NCBI GenBank assembly: GCA_019695055.1
Contig: JAIBAT010000028.1
Coordinates: 74,420-138,419 of the forward strand
Reading direction: 5' to 3'
DNA length: 64,000 bases
Source of the DNA: Candidatus Sumerlaeaceae bacterium
GTDB lineage: Bacteria; Sumerlaeota; Sumerlaeia; Sumerlaeales; Sumerlaeaceae
Shown: piece after piece, positions 1,193 through 54,837 of the stretch
How the letters are laid out: each line of letters opens with the position of its first letter
Numbering within the stretch: position 1 is the first letter of the stretch
Notes under the pieces: model-generated
Seen by the model: only the letters and a program-made list of their open reading frames with translations
Database searches by the model: none
What the model was told of the DNA's origin: nothing
Program-made: the position numbers and the translations under genes

Positions 1193-1993
1193 TTACGTCT
1201 TGCGGAAAATGTGGTCCTTTCTCAGGGCGCCGGTTTCCATGCGGAAGTTGACGCGGTCCACCTTTCCGGAGGCGTCCCGGCCGAAGATTGCTGTCAGGTC
1301 CTCGGCCGGGCAGAAGAAGACGTCGCCCGACTTTGGCTCCAGGCGAATGCCATCCACCACCAGTGACCGGGCCACGAGTGCCCCGTTTTCGAGCCGGACC
1401 GTGGCGGTCGTGGGTCCGCGATTGTAGTCCCCGGCAAACTGGTCGAGGAATCCGGTAGAAGGTGGCGCCGTGATGGGCGGCGTGGCTGCGACATCGGTTG
1501 GAATCCGCTCCAATGTGACATCGATTGCATCGCCGTCCTGCCGGAATTGCCCAATGATTTCGTTCCTTCCGAGGCGCCTGCCTTCGAAAGTGGATTGATG
1601 CAGGAGCATTGGGCCTTCGAACTGAATCAGGTCGGTTCCCTGCTCAATGACGTTGACGGGTACGGAGCCAAACCCCTGTTCGGGGCTTTGGACCTTGCCC
1701 ATCAGAGATCCATCCGGATGGCGGTACACGGTGAAGACCAAGGGGAACCCTCCCCTGCCGCCGGGGTAGTTCAACCGGCCCATCCATTTTCCAACGGGCC
1801 AATCCCGCGCTGATTCGCCAGCTGCGCCGAGGAGGTGGCCGGGGATGGGAGACCAGGTGGTCTTCCGGAATATGTAGAATCCGGCGCCGGCAATGAGGAC
1901 GGCGAGTGCAAGGGCGGTTAGGAGCTCAAAGGCCCTGCTTCCGGTTGCTGGATTCGGTTCGTTATCGTCATCATCCCAAAAATCTCCGCCCAT
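1193..1993 (-). CDS. Membrane-anchored protein with DUF3471-like C-terminal region
   Basis: A 266-residue protein starting with an acidic stretch (DFWDDDDNEPN) followed by one hydrophobic segment at about residues 21-42, so probably anchored in the inner membrane with the bulk outside. The last 80 residues (LDQFAGDYN, then FFCPAED, then IFGRDASGKVDRVNF) resemble the DUF3471 fold often found at the end of beta-lactamase-like or secreted proteins. No catalytic motif is visible and I cannot name a function. The frame stays open far upstream of 1993, but that part is antisense to the dCMP deaminase gene; ATG 1993 is preceded by AAGGCAGG. The gene stands alone between the antitoxin and a long non-coding gap. 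Confidence 0.75.
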   Translation of the reverse strand: MGGDFWDDDDNEPNPATGSRAFELLTALALAVLIAGAGFYIFRKTTWSPIPGHLLGAAGESARDWPVGKWMGRLNYPGGRGGFPLVFTVYRHPDGSLMGKVQSPEQGFGSVPVNVIEQGTDLIQFEGPMLLHQSTFEGRRLGRNEIIGQFRQDGDAIDVTLERIPTDVAATPPITAPPSTGFLDQFAGDYNRGPTTATVRLENGALVARSLVVDGIRLEPKSGDVFFCPAEDLTAIFGRDASGKVDRVNFRMETGALRKDHIFRKT

Positions 1994-50056: not shown

Positions 50057-51169
50057 TCATCCGACGGCTGCCGCCGGCCTCGGGCCGGTCATGTTGCGCT
50101 TCAGGCAGCCCATGAGATCCGCAAAGCTCGACTGCTTCTCGGAATTCATGAAAACTTTCTCATTAAAGATGGTGGATACGATCTCCTGGAAATTCCGCGC
50201 TGGCTCGCTATGGGGATAGGACATGACGAGGGGCCGGCGTTGGGTCACGGAGACGCGCATATGCTCACTGTCGACCACGTGGCCAAGATCGTTGAGTTCG
50301 TACCTGAGGTGCTGGCGCGCCGCCGTTCCGAGGCGGTTGAAGACATTCTTCGCGTCGTACTTGTCCTGCACCTGGTTCGTAACCACACCGATCTTCGAGC
50401 GGGGCTCCATCTCCAGCAGGATCTTAATGATGGAAAAGCAATCCGCGTTCGCCGCAAGGTTTGGCGTCGTGACGGCGATGACTTCATCGGCGAACGTGGC
50501 GAACCGCAGCACATTCTCGCTGATTCCCGCGCCCGTGTCCACGAGAAGCACGTCCACTTCGCGCTCAAGCGCATCAATCTGGCGCAGCAGCACGCGTCGC
50601 TGCTCGTCGTTGAGGTTCGCCATCTCGCGGACCCCCTGGCCCCCACTGATGATGGGGATGCCCAGAGGGCCCTTTGTGATGACGTCTTCCAGGGCAAAAT
50701 TGCCCTGGACGACATGCGACAGATTAAATCTTGGTTTTACGCCCATGAGGATGTGGACGTTCGCGAGCCCAAGGTCCGCGTCGAAAATTCCCACCCGCAG
50801 GCCCGTCTGGGCAATAACGCAGGCGAGATTCACCACGACGCTGGTTTTGCCAACTCCGCCCTTGCCACTGGTGATGGCAATGACGCGGGCATAGCTGGGG
50901 CCCTTAACGGGCTTCGGGGGCTTGACGTGGATGTTCTTGATGAAGGACTTCAGCTCGCGCTTCACCTCATCGACGGTAAAGCCTCGCTTGTGGACAAGCT
51001 CCTTGATGCGGAGCAGAATTGCAATGTGGTCCTCGGTGAAGTCATTCTTGTCGAGGCCCATCTCGGTAAAAGTCAGGAATTCTTTGAAGGCGTTCTCGAA
51101 ATACCGGATCTCACTCTCTTCGAGACCGGTCTTGTCGACCACCTGGGTAATTGAAAATCTGCGTATCAT
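50057..51169 (-). CDS. MinD/FlhG-like ATPase with N-terminal MerR-type helix-turn-helix
   Basis: A 370-residue protein. Residues 1-80 look like a MerR-type winged helix (SITQVVDKTGLEESEIRYFENAF, then ILLRIKELVHKRGFTVDEV), followed by a deviant-Walker ATPase: IAITSGKGGVGKTSVVVNLA (about 97-117), GIFDADLGLANVHILMG and VLLVDTGAGISENVLRF. The ATPase half is closest to FlhG/YlxH, which positions flagella or other polar machines, but no flagellar gene is in the window. A GGAGGT lies 12 bases before ATG 51169. The N-terminal DNA-binding-like domain is unusual for FlhG and suggests chromosome or promoter targeting. Confidence 0.88.
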   Translation of the reverse strand: MIRRFSITQVVDKTGLEESEIRYFENAFKEFLTFTEMGLDKNDFTEDHIAILLRIKELVHKRGFTVDEVKRELKSFIKNIHVKPPKPVKGPSYARVIAITSGKGGVGKTSVVVNLACVIAQTGLRVGIFDADLGLANVHILMGVKPRFNLSHVVQGNFALEDVITKGPLGIPIISGGQGVREMANLNDEQRRVLLRQIDALEREVDVLLVDTGAGISENVLRFATFADEVIAVTTPNLAANADCFSIIKILLEMEPRSKIGVVTNQVQDKYDAKNVFNRLGTAARQHLRYELNDLGHVVDSEHMRVSVTQRRPLVMSYPHSEPARNFQEIVSTIFNEKVFMNSEKQSSFADLMGCLKRNMTGPRPAAAVG

Positions 51170-51610
51170 CTTCAGCGGCCACCTCCATCAACAGGATCAC
51201 AGCAGCGCGCGGGATGAGCCAGACCCCGGCGCGATCAGAACGGGAAAAACTACGTCAGCAAAAGATACGTTTTACATTGTGCCCGGCATGAATTGCGTCC
51301 GCCAGGCTTATATCAAAGAACGATTTTGCATTACTGCGTACAGGGTCCTACATAGCTTGTCAAAAGAAGATTTTGCTAAAAAGTTAAAATTTAAGGAAAT
51401 TGCCATCGGAACAAAAACCCTGTGGGCGGGGCAGAAATACGGGCGAAGGCCGGATTGTGACTCGCCCCCTCCGGACGCCATCCCAAATCCCCACCGGCCA
51501 TACCCTGGCACAACATGTTGTATTGCTAACCGTTCAACAAGGCGACAAATCAACATTTCCTGAAAATTCTTCTTGCTTTTGCCGCCCCGAATCGGCACCA
51601 CCTTCCGCAC
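51170..51610. other. Upstream region of the MinD-like gene
   Basis: About 440 bases with no supported gene. The part from 51250 to 51420 is clearly AT-rich in a GC-rich neighbourhood and is the likely promoter region of the MinD-like gene on the minus strand. A 100-codon frame on the minus strand (51308-51610) was judged spurious. Confidence 0.45.
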
Positions 51611-51632
51611 GCTGAGAAAGGAGGTGGTCTGG

Positions 51633-51677
51633 TTGCAGTTTCACAGTAACTTAGACAGCGAGGTGGCTGGGGCTTAG
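51633..51677 (+). CDS. Possible 14-residue leader peptide
   Basis: A TTG at 51633 lies eight bases after AAAGGAGG and opens a 14-codon frame (MQFHSNLDSEVAGA) ending in TAG. A GTG at 51624 in the same frame would add VWL-type residues but is too close to the AGGAGG. A short-stem hairpin (GGGC TTA GCCC) overlaps its end, and a strong terminator lies at 51803-51835 before a cupin gene. The arrangement is that of a leader peptide or of a small-peptide gene. Its sequence is not one I can name. Confidence 0.35.
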   Translation: MQFHSNLDSEVAGA

Positions 51678-51802
51678 CCCTCGGTTGGTCTCCTACGCGG
51701 CAGTTCTGTTGACCAGTTTTGAGCTGGCCAATACCAACAGCCTCACCTTCCTGCGCCGATAGCGCTCAGCAAACCGGCCGCAAAGTCAGGATAGTTTCCC
51801 AA

Positions 51803-51835
51803 CCCGGGGTCGCCGCGGCCCCGGGATTTCTTTTT
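51803..51835 (+). terminator. Rho-independent terminator upstream of the cupin gene
   Basis: Perfect seven-base stem CCCGGGG / CCCCGGG around TCGCCGCGG-type loop, followed by ATTTCTTTTT. It would end a roughly 200-base transcript that begins near the peptide at 51633 and so separate it from the cupin gene, or act as an attenuator. Confidence 0.8.
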
Positions 51836-51867: not shown

Positions 51868-52230
51868 ATGCCCCAGTTCATCGCCGCGCCAAAGGTCATA
51901 GAGGCCGCAGGCAACAAACCCAAGCTCATCGAGGAATTCGTTGGCCGCGTCAATACAGGCGCCGCCGGCGTCAGCATCGCGCGCATGAAGAGCCCCGGCG
52001 GATGGGTCGAGCCCGGCCAGCGCCCCGAATTCGACGAATACACGGTTGTCCTCCGCGGCGTCCTTCGCGTGGAGTTTGAGGGAGGCGACCAACAGGTTCG
52101 CGCCGGCCAGGCAATCCTCACCCGCGCCGGAGAGTGGGTTCGCTACTCAAGCCCGGAGGCCGACGGAGCCGAATACGTCGCCGTTTGCATGCCCGCCTTC
52201 AGCCCCGAGACTGTCCACCGCGACGAGTAG
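51868..52230 (+). CDS. Single-domain cupin protein
   Basis: A 120-residue beta-barrel protein. The first cupin motif reads PGQRPEFDEYTVVLRGVLRVEFEG, in which the usual histidines are replaced by Pro, Glu and Asp, and the second is AGQAILTRAGEWVRYSS with no histidine. The metal site is therefore probably incomplete, so a sugar- or small-molecule-binding or non-metal role is likelier than an oxygenase. GAGGAA precedes ATG 51868 at a suitable distance. It follows the terminator leader and ends five bases before the stop of a gene on the opposite strand. Confidence 0.85.
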   Translation: MPQFIAAPKVIEAAGNKPKLIEEFVGRVNTGAAGVSIARMKSPGGWVEPGQRPEFDEYTVVLRGVLRVEFEGGDQQVRAGQAILTRAGEWVRYSSPEADGAEYVAVCMPAFSPETVHRDE

Positions 52231-52234
52231 CCAG

Positions 52235-53026
52235 CTACTCGTACTCAAGCCATTCCTTTACCGCGGCCCGCAGCGTAAGTTTCTCTGGATCTTGCTGGTC
52301 GGACATCAGCGACGGAGTCGAGTAAGTAACCGTAAGCACAGGATGCTCGCTTGGCTCCAGGCTGTCGCTGGTACCGTAGCCGCGGGCTGTCTGTATGATG
52401 ATCTCTTCCCCTTTAAGGATCCACCCGTAGTTCTGCCGCGGCCAGGTTACCCAGGATTGAACGTCGCTCACCATGCCCTTGCCGGCCCAAATCACATTGG
52501 TAAAGGTCAGGTTGCCAATGTCCGCCGTTGCGCTGCGCTCTGCCGCGAAGTAGTCCCCTCCAGCCTTGGTCCACGAGGTGCTGGCGCAGTTATTCCATGT
52601 CGCCGAGACGGTGGTGAGTGTTCCCCCCGCACCGGTACCAAACCCGGTACCCTCGACCCAAGGGTGGGTGATACGGTACAGGCTCTGGGTTGTGTCGGGA
52701 GGGCCAACCCCTGGGGCTTCTGTCATAAGCAGGTTGAGTGAAACACTGGTGATCGTTGCGTTTCTCGGAATCGAAGAGAGATTGAATCGAATCAGAGCGC
52801 GACGGGTGCCGTGGGCCTGGGTCTCGCCCGCCCGCATGCGATCAGACCCGCCAGCGTTATCAAAGGGGACGTTGGAATAGAGCGTGGTGTCATCAGTGAC
52901 CAAAGGCCCGGAGATGTTCACGGTTGCCGGGAAAGCAGGAAACACAGTGCAGACAGCCACCAAGGCGAACAGCTGGCGGACCAGAATGCGGGGGAAATGA
53001 AATCTTACCGATACCAATTTGCACAA
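52235..53026 (-). CDS. Secreted DNRLRE-domain protein
   Basis: A 263-residue exported protein. After a signal peptide near residues 1-37 (RQLFALVAVCTVFPAFPAT) comes a beta-sandwich of the DNRLRE type: VTDDTTLYSNVPFDNAGGSDRMRAG, then RRALIRFNLSSIPRNATITSVSLNL, then ITHPWVEGTG and WNNCAS. These domains occur in surface proteins and often bind polysaccharide. The start is uncertain because the frame continues upstream into the divergent gene; TTG 53026 with AAGG upstream is my choice and begins just before the signal peptide. Confidence 0.75.
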   Translation of the reverse strand: MCKLVSVRFHFPRILVRQLFALVAVCTVFPAFPATVNISGPLVTDDTTLYSNVPFDNAGGSDRMRAGETQAHGTRRALIRFNLSSIPRNATITSVSLNLLMTEAPGVGPPDTTQSLYRITHPWVEGTGFGTGAGGTLTTVSATWNNCASTSWTKAGGDYFAAERSATADIGNLTFTNVIWAGKGMVSDVQSWVTWPRQNYGWILKGEEIIIQTARGYGTSDSLEPSEHPVLTVTYSTPSLMSDQQDPEKLTLRAAVKEWLEYE

Positions 53027-53241
53027 AATGCCTTGGGGGAATGTGAAAACGGAAACAGCCCTTTGAGGAGTTTTATGCGGGAAAACCAGTTGGGGACCGC
53101 TTCGCAGTTCCGATTGGTTCTGTGCTGAACCAACCGGGGGAGAGCTGTCAAGGCCGTGTTGGACACCGGGAAGGCTTGACACCGCCCGGGTGACTGGCAT
53201 AGTGAAAGGACAATCTGTACCCTCGGAGGGCTCCCCCAGCC

Positions 53242-54837
53242 ATGAAACCCATTTTGGGCAGTTGCGGTATCGTGCGTCACCTTCAGGTCTTGGGAGCAGC
53301 ATCTTTGCTGCTGCTGGCAGGGCCTGTGACAGCGGCAACATTCACGGAACAGGGCGCATCGGTCCTCATTGAATCTCCGGCATCCCCGAACTTGGACGCC
53401 ATCAGTTGCTCCTTCGCAGACATCGACAACGACGGTGATCCCGATCTGTTGATCCAGGGTGCGTCCACCGCACGGCGCATGTTCCTCAACAACAAAATCC
53501 CCAACGGCATTGGTTCATTTACCAAGATCACAACCGGCCCTGTTAACAGCGCAGACGGAACCGGGTGGAGTGCCTGCTGGGGCGACTATGACAGCGATGG
53601 TCGCATCGACGTGTTTGAAGGCCAGGCCAACAACGGCGGCGGATCCGCCAGTAGCGGCGACCTTTATCGCAACCTCGGCGGATCGTTTTCCAATGTCAGC
53701 GCCTCCACCATCAACGATCCCGGATTCCACCAAAACGTGGCATGGTGCGACATCGACAAGGATGGCGACTTGGATCTGCTGATTGGAATGGAAGGCCCCG
53801 AACTCCACCAGGTCTATATCCAGAATAACTCCACCAGCTTCACCCAGGCCGGAGCCACCATGGGCATGCAGGTCCCCTACGGGTACAAAGCCTACGGCAT
53901 GGCCATTGGAGACTCTGACGGCGACGGCGACTTTGACGTCTATATCTCAACGTGCATCTCCACCCAGATCATCCGGAACAACTTCTTCCGTAACGATATC
54001 AGCACCAACAGCGTGGGACGCGCGTTTGTCGACATTGCCGATTCCAACGGAACGCAGTACATGAACAACAGCTATTCCTGCGGTTTCTACGACTTCGACA
54101 ACGACGGGGATCTTGACCTCCTGATGGCGGGCGCCGACGGCTGGGCAAGCAAGATTTTCCGAAACAATGGCAGCAACAATTTTACGGACGTGGACACACT
54201 CTCAACACACCCCCTTCTCAGTAATCAGGGCGGCGATTTCAACGGTGCCCAAGCCTTGGACTATGACAATGACGGGGACCTAGATCTCTACTTCCATGAC
54301 CATCTATCCAGCGGCTCCTTTAACCAGGCCCGACGCCTCTATCGCAACGACGGCAACTGGCAATTCACCGACGTGACCGTGGCCGAGGGCCTTGGCGGTA
54401 CCAACGAAGGCGGCTACGACAGTGCCTGGGCCGACTTTGACCTCGACGGCGACCTCGATCTGGCATTCCCAACCGGCTCCACGGCACCAGAACGCTTCTT
54501 TACCAGCACCGTTTCCACCAATGGCAACAAATGGCTCTACGTAAAGCTCCAGGGTCTCTCACCCAACACCCGGGCCATCGGCGCGCAGATTTACGTCACC
54601 ATCTTCAAGAGCACCGTGAACGAGAAGACCCTTCGCCGCGACTGCAACACCAATGCCAACGCCTTCCACCAGGATGATCTCCCGGTCCACTTCGGCCTCG
54701 GCTCGGCGACCATTGTGGATGAACTCAAGATCGTTTGGCCGAATGGAACCCAACGCATCCTGACCAACGTCGCAGTAAACCAACGCCTGAACGTTGCCCA
54801 GTTTGCGGCGTCCGTTGATGACTGGCCGCTCTATTAG
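53242..54837 (+). CDS. FG-GAP/VCBS repeat protein with ASPIC/UnbV C-terminal domain
   Basis: A 531-residue exported protein with a signal peptide (ASLLLLAGPVTA) and at least five calcium-binding repeats of the FG-GAP kind (FADIDNDGDPDLL, YDFDNDGDLDLLMAG, DYDNDGDLDLYF, DFDLDGDLDLAFP). The C-terminal 90 residues match the ASPIC/UnbV (CRTAC1-like) domain: GAQIYV, then HFGLGSATIVDELKIVWPNG. Such proteins are abundant in this type of bacterium, probably as beta-propeller surface proteins. The stop overlaps the ferredoxin stop on the other strand. Confidence 0.92.
   Translation: MKPILGSCGIVRHLQVLGAASLLLLAGPVTAATFTEQGASVLIESPASPNLDAISCSFADIDNDGDPDLLIQGASTARRMFLNNKIPNGIGSFTKITTGPVNSADGTGWSACWGDYDSDGRIDVFEGQANNGGGSASSGDLYRNLGGSFSNVSASTINDPGFHQNVAWCDIDKDGDLDLLIGMEGPELHQVYIQNNSTSFTQAGATMGMQVPYGYKAYGMAIGDSDGDGDFDVYISTCISTQIIRNNFFRNDISTNSVGRAFVDIADSNGTQYMNNSYSCGFYDFDNDGDLDLLMAGADGWASKIFRNNGSNNFTDVDTLSTHPLLSNQGGDFNGAQALDYDNDGDLDLYFHDHLSSGSFNQARRLYRNDGNWQFTDVTVAEGLGGTNEGGYDSAWADFDLDGDLDLAFPTGSTAPERFFTSTVSTNGNKWLYVKLQGLSPNTRAIGAQIYVTIFKSTVNEKTLRRDCNTNANAFHQDDLPVHFGLGSATIVDELKIVWPNGTQRILTNVAVNQRLNVAQFAASVDDWPLY

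Follow-up and report, generated by a model that had tools for sequence, protein, structure and literature searches.

The window, by which we mean the whole 64,000-nucleotide stretch of DNA analyzed, contains a short intergenic element at 51609–51835 on the plus strand that, read in the window sequence, begins with ACGCTG and ends with an intrinsic terminator. Upstream and divergent from it lies a gene (50057–51169, minus strand) for a MerR-type helix-turn-helix domain fused to a ParA/MinD (FlhG-like) ATPase (Pfam MerR_1 and ParA), and downstream on the same strand a cupin gene (Pfam Cupin_2) with its own ribosome-binding site starts at 51868. The surroundings of the cupin gene also encode an FG-GAP/ASPIC-UnbV protein (53242–54837, plus strand) and a weak CBM96-like protein (52235–53341, minus strand). 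The original prediction had described an extended ribosome-binding site, a 14-codon frame, an imperfect stem, a terminator and the cupin gene at this place, and all of these are present as described (Table 1).

The micro-ORF, which in the window has TTG as its start codon, reads TTG CAG TTT CAC AGT AAC TTA GAC AGC GAG GTG GCT GGG GCT TAG, and the GAGGTG of the SD-like block SD2 ends 9 nt ahead of the stop. The hairpin at 51709–51731 is retained, with changes, in the alignment of two same-family relatives, L009 and L010, and the AATCC motif is visible in Actinobacteria too. The window's family has an extra conserved stretch (GGTCTCCTACGCGG; TCCTGCGCCG...AAAGTCAGGA; 51680–51800, seen in L009 and L010) around P3 and ahead of the terminator, which is absent from the other aligned members. 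The 230-nt strand has a fold z-score of −2.3. Terminator-like sites follow the element in 53/86 members, compared with 11/86 shuffles, and most members without such a site are high-GC actinobacteria.

Upstream of the element, a promoter profile of 73 members, with positions counted from the A of AC at the inferred 5′ end, has T enriched at −36/−35, T or A at −12/−11 and T at −7 (42/73), and clear TTGACA and TATNNT-like boxes are found in several relatives. Such a sigma-70-like profile would be placed for transcription to start near the A of ACGC.

Table 1. Features of the element and its upstream region in the window
Feature	Position	Strand	Basis or remark
−35-like sequence TTGCTT	51573–51578	+	−36 to −31 counted from first A of ACGC
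−10 of the window, ACCACC, weak	51597–51602	+	Promoter profile
Inferred RNA 5′ end, A of ACGCTG	51609	+	Promoter profile
P1 helix, 5′ strand CGCT	51610–51613	+	Own-partner versus swapped-partner permutations
Extended Shine-Dalgarno SD1, AGAAAGGAGGTGGTC	51615–51629	+	Near-invariant alignment block; 16S tail of relatives; genome uniqueness
P2 helix, 5′ strand GTCT	51627–51630	+	Own versus swapped ΔG
Micro-ORF TTG...TAG, MQFHSNLDSEVAGA and stop, 14 codons	51633–51677	+	ORF and near-fixed stop across members
P2 helix, 3′ strand AGAC	51653–51656	+	Own versus swapped ΔG
P1 helix, 3′ strand AGCG	51657–51660	+	Own-partner versus swapped-partner permutations
SD-like block SD2 and P3 helix 5′ strand, GAGGTGGCTG	51660–51669	+	Own versus swapped ΔG
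Variable hairpin TTGACCAG/CTGGCCAA	arms 51709–51716/51724–51731	+	Between stop and P3 3′ strand
AATACC, window form of recurrent AATCC motif	51730–51735	+	Directly 5′ of P3 3′ strand; alignment
P3 helix, 3′ strand CAGCCTCACC, SD-complementary	51738–51747	+	Own versus swapped ΔG; fold prediction
Intrinsic terminator CCCGGGGTCGCCGCGGCCCCGGG-ATTTCTTTTT	stem 51803–51825 and T tail, to 51835	+	10 pairs, 9 G-C

Distribution, neighborhood, and relation to Ms_IGR-5

A DNA search returned two close homologues in genomes of the same family (E values of 2e-53 and 5e-26), and matches of lower strength were spread through the class. A genome-wide pattern scan picked out at least 93 stretches, from Sumerlaeota/BRC1, Streptomyces, Streptosporangiaceae, Nocardioidaceae, Planctomycetes, Acidobacteria, Armatimonadetes/Fimbriimonadaceae, Deltaproteobacteria RBG_13_61_14 and Entotheonella; three of them (L070, from an archaeon, L106 and L116) were set aside as likely chance matches because their flanks look coding and the rest of the element is absent. 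The element is found in Sumerlaeota, to which the window genome belongs, and in Actinomycetota, Planctomycetes, Acidobacteria, Armatimonadetes, a deltaproteobacterium and Entotheonella, which makes at least seven major bacterial groups. Strong matches to a sequence model of the 5′ domain (E below 1e-5) occur in at least 17 of the 39 genomes of the class, one in each, in at least 33 of 386 genomes of a broader sample, and in at least 38 of 218 in a phylum sample taken as Actinomycetota from its sequences, all three counts being lower bounds because the filters were strict. Genomes that carry the element have one strong copy each. A pattern scan of IMG/VR gave no match, and a viral origin was dropped on that account. 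Two loci with the element, one of them from Sumerlaeota, also carry Acido-Lenti-1 RNA (RF01687), an orphan Rfam RNA, above its gathering score (L053, 2677–2722, and L111, 1730–1775, both on the plus strand).

The neighboring genes are not conserved. A tblastn search with five window proteins, including the cupin and the MerR-ATPase, against all relative loci matched the window's own loci only; since most of the relatives' flanks span 1.5 kb to a few kb, this excludes adjacency but not presence elsewhere. In Streptomyces the element is convergent to a citrate synthase gene. The original prediction had seen here the shape of an attenuator leader for the cupin gene. In its favor, a terminator separates the ORF from the cupin gene, which is on the same strand and has a separate ribosome-binding site. 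Against this, no cupin or FlhG-like gene adjoins the element in any relative locus, on which ground the idea was rejected, and the family forms a separate transcription unit in Streptomyces avermitilis (PMC8780764). In the relative loci and in Streptomyces, no conserved same-strand gene that the element could regulate follows it, and selection on leader codons or peptide was not found either (amino acid changes are neutral, and there are two reading frames). A role as cupin leader has a next to negligible probability.

What the element resembles is a known RNA. At the gathering threshold the whole window has no match in Rfam, and the whole-length model of RF02471 (Ms_IGR-5) scores 16.5 bits in a 401-nt search (E = 0.11) as against a gathering score of 45. 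Two further low-scoring hits on the 3′ half, P15 (22.7 bits, gathering 70) and anti-hemB (16.2 bits, gathering 49.5), were rejected as terminator-driven chance. Four actinobacterial loci of our set, from Streptomyces, Nonomuraea, Herbidospora and Nocardioidaceae, are RF02471 members at 52–82 bits. With these loci (L042, L045, L054 and L112) the window has in common the block formed by SD1, ORF and GAGGTG, as well as the stop position, in the same order from the 5′ end: AC, AAGGAGGTGGTCC, GAGGTGGCTG and the CTAG stop region. P1, P2 and P3 are supported over the joint set of the window and the RF02471-positive loci. Under the 45-bit rule of Rfam the window is not a member; it does share the conserved 5′ architecture of accepted members. 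Judged from its architecture, the window element is a distant, divergent relative of Ms_IGR-5, and common descent is supported because a chain of intermediates has the same architecture.

Ms_IGR-5 was first reported as an sRNA of Mycobacterium smegmatis (Li et al. 2013, RNA 19:74, as cited in PMC10454040), where it overlaps ncMSMEG15794c (PMC10454040), and is described in Rfam as an actinobacterial sRNA. It is backed by RNA-seq in Streptomyces lividans (PMC8079986) and was mapped as an sRNA transcription unit of its own in S. avermitilis (PMC8780764). Our literature search on Ms_IGR-5 met with no assigned function, and none of the papers covered mentions a micro-ORF, helix P1 or any member from beyond the actinobacteria. 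The conservation of the element across phyla amid non-conserved neighbors, its one strong copy per genome, the promoter-like profile, the terminator and the published actinobacterial transcripts together point to an independent RNA gene; on this comparative evidence the window element is a probable free-standing gene, with its own predicted promoter and terminator, for a small RNA of ∼220 nt.

Complementarity to the 16S tail and the conserved helices

SD1 pairs with GATCACCTCCTTTCT, the last 15 nt of the 16S tail, with one G-U wobble, which bears out the earlier remark that this stretch resembles the complement of the 16S 3′ end beyond the usual core. The tail used, GGCTGGATCACCTCCTTTCT, was taken from relatives because the 16S 3′ end of the window's own genome was not found in its draft assembly; class relatives G012 and G022 have it, as do members from other phyla. 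Allowing up to one mismatch, the 4.34-Mb genome has a single occurrence of AGAAAGGAGGTGRTC and none of the reversed control. In Staphylococcus aureus, extended Shine-Dalgarno initiation likewise involves pairing with 16S rRNA that continues beyond the core toward the start codon; there it is a feature of many ordinary mRNAs (PMC13009471), whereas here a genome-unique site lies in one dedicated small RNA. In relative G016, a pilin-like gene (MRKGFTLIELLIVVAI...; L152, ∼1490–1560, plus strand) has an equally extended ribosome-binding site, AGAAAGGAGGTGATCCGAATG, and extended Shine-Dalgarno sequences are therefore not exclusive to the RNA of the element within the class.

SD1 is near-invariant across aligned members, so its alternative pairing is beyond the reach of covariation. 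P1 joins the nucleotides after the inferred 5′ end to those just ahead of AGGTG in the GAGGTG block, and its versions remain complementary (CGCT/AGCG, CACT/AGTG, CGCA/TGCG, CGAG/CTCG, CAGG/CCTG, CCAG/CTGG and CGTG/CACG). A full 4-bp Watson-Crick P1 is present in 44 of 74 members outside Planctomycetes (mean of 12.7 and maximum of 25 with partners swapped in 2000 permutations) and in 25/30 of the actinobacterial sample (swapped maximum 13); none was found in Planctomycete members. For P2 the mean ΔG with own partners is −5.36 kcal/mol versus −4.37 with swapped partners (best of 300 swaps, −4.97), and for P3 it is −16.6 versus −15.2 kcal/mol (best of 100 swaps, −15.8). By these swap and permutation tests, which do not fully correct for shared ancestry, the three helices covary across the alignment.

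A second fold is predicted close to home. In the window, L009 and L010, partition functions pair the 3′ strand with SD1 at a mean probability of 0.50–0.57 and leave P3 near zero, so that SD1 is hidden in the predicted ground state of the window lineage and ribosome access may be self-limited there. Over the family, P3 exceeds 0.5 in 36/76 members and SD1 sequestration dominates in just 9/76; a switch between SD1 and P3 is therefore not general and was rejected as a family-wide rule. Planctomycete members (for example L039, L089 and L114) have downstream of P3 a 16S-tail-like sequence, GGATCACC, which is possibly an internal anti-SD.

A frame kept open

The extraction pattern demanded GAGGTG, which therefore owes part of its invariance to that pattern; no such demand was made of start or stop. 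An ATG, GTG or TTG at a workable distance after SD1, with an in-frame stop 8–12 nt past the next GAGGTG, is present in 81 of 86 non-redundant members, compared with a mean of 2.3 and a maximum of 9 in 1000 linker shuffles. The spacing from GAGGTG to the stop is 9 nt in 65 members, 8 in 13, 11 in 2 and 12 in 1. An earlier, stricter set gave a micro-ORF in 42/43, against 0.5 expected from shuffles. Lengths range from 10 to 16 codons across members. There are local departures: in the acidobacterial member L095 the GAGGTG block occurs twice (GAGGTGACATACC...GAGGTGGCGGCAACTTAG) and the frame is longer, and one Sumerlaeota member, L019/L144, has lost the usual stop (TTG against TAG in its sister L014), which extends the frame by 15 codons.

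The peptide does not share this conservation. The GAGGTG block is read as GAG GTG, giving E-V, in 66 members, with EVA near the C terminus in most phyla, and one frame off, mostly as R-G-G, in 15 (Planctomycetes, Armatimonadetes and one other). Among the variable codons of close pairs, 24 synonymous and 105 nonsynonymous changes were counted against 24.1 and 104.9 expected without selection, a descriptive ratio rather than a formal test because the pairs overlap. Of the small-peptide gene put forward in the original prediction, the conserved ORF with its ribosome-binding site stands; a functional peptide is not supported. Relatives keep the reading frame and the stems but not the sequence of the peptide, so the refuting case named in the original prediction, a lack of conserved peptide or stems in any relative, does not arise.

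A small-protein gene with a functional product of 10–16 residues would account for the conserved ORF, the strong SD and the EVA of most phyla. However, in Planctomycetes and Armatimonadetes identical nucleotides give RGG, the amino acids show no sign of purifying selection, and helix P3 and SD2 account for EVA; the functional peptide was rejected on the frame change and the neutral amino acid changes, and we consider such a gene highly improbable. Since the ORF is kept while the block is read in two frames and amino acid changes are neutral, it appears from these comparisons to be the act of translation, not the peptide, that is under selection.

Proposed ribosome engagement and comparison with known systems

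The explanation that we favor, with a probability of about one-half, is a stand-alone small RNA, a divergent relative of Ms_IGR-5, built to engage the ribosome, with any downstream effect being inferred. Contact with the ribosome is suggested by the extended SD match and by the published ribosome footprints on Ms_IGR-5 homologues of Mycobacterium abscessus and M. smegmatis (PMC4974804), with the caution from the same study that many ordinary non-coding RNAs also give Ribo-seq signal. By comparison among members, SD1 is presented beside P1 and P2, and the last codons of the micro-ORF double as one strand of P3. A 30S subunit would capture SD1 through near-complete pairing with the 16S tail and then initiate, and the ribosome, while translating or terminating, would melt P2 and P1 together with the P3 5′ strand. 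At 8–12 nt past the SD-like GAGGTG, the stop is so placed that the 16S tail could pair again and keep the terminating ribosome there; in the window, SD2 lies 9 nt upstream of the stop and 6 nt upstream of the P-site codon, a possible ribosome hold. With the ribosome present, the 3′ strand (CAGUCCACC-like, SD-complementary) would be free for the ribosome-binding sites of other mRNAs; alternatively, the freed strand could bind SD1 and stop further initiation. In this view, what the RNA reports on, or what sets the extent of its action, would be how many initiating 30S subunits are available, and the peptide would be a by-product. Against this explanation stand the weak −10 of the window, the Planctomycetes without P1 and the few members (9/76) in which SD1 sequestration is dominant.

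A more far-reaching proposal, which we put forward tentatively and hold to be rather less probable than its basis, is that the family is a widespread ribosome-gated riboregulator, one that would sense initiation capacity by presenting a near-complete complement to the 16S tail, would be translated so that a ribosome passes and halts at a fixed place and not for a product, and would toggle P1 and P3 to control the SD-complementary strand. Literature searches for peptides and SD-like decoy sRNAs returned no description of such a mechanism.

Two simpler roles have to be weighed. The cataloging of actinobacterial members as sRNAs, the SD-complementary 3′ strand and the recurrent AATCC motif would all suit an ordinary trans-acting antisense sRNA whose 3′ half pairs with mRNAs, its strong-SD micro-ORF serving only to protect or stabilize it through the loading of ribosomes. 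A more specific use of translation is suggested, however, by where the stop lies and by the two frames in which a fixed RNA block is read, and the region after the stop varies between phyla except for P3 and AATCC, so we think this unlikely, if still a serious competitor. An RNA acting as ribosome decoy, in hibernation, or in maturation or quality control of the 16S 3′ end would bind free or immature 30S subunits with little elongation. The 15-nt complement of the 16S tail and the mycobacterial footprints (PMC4974804) agree with this, but a decoy has no need of an in-frame stop at a near-fixed place, which 81/86 members have, or of a helix P3 over the last codons, and the odds of such a role are low.

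Whichever role applies, an orphan sRNA cataloged as actinobacterial now has relatives in at least seven major groups, which places it among the more widespread unexplained bacterial RNAs. A frame held open in the apparent absence of amino acid selection is unusual, and it sets translation as an act apart from what translation makes. Should the ribosome-gated proposal prove true, the cell would have in this RNA a dedicated sensor of how many initiating ribosomes it can supply, and one found in such tractable hosts as Streptomyces and M. smegmatis.

Ribosome-sensing leader peptides and attenuators of the trp and erm type combine a short ORF, alternative stems and a terminator. The element has all three; unlike those leaders, it is without a conserved regulated gene downstream, a selected peptide or diagnostic codons, and its terminator ends a stand-alone unit. 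SgrS/SgrT, SR1/SR1P and RNAIII are dual-function sRNAs, the encoded protein being functional. The element is like them a regulatory RNA, as we read it, that also carries an ORF, but its amino acid changes are neutral, and its ORF is much shorter and overlaps structural helices.
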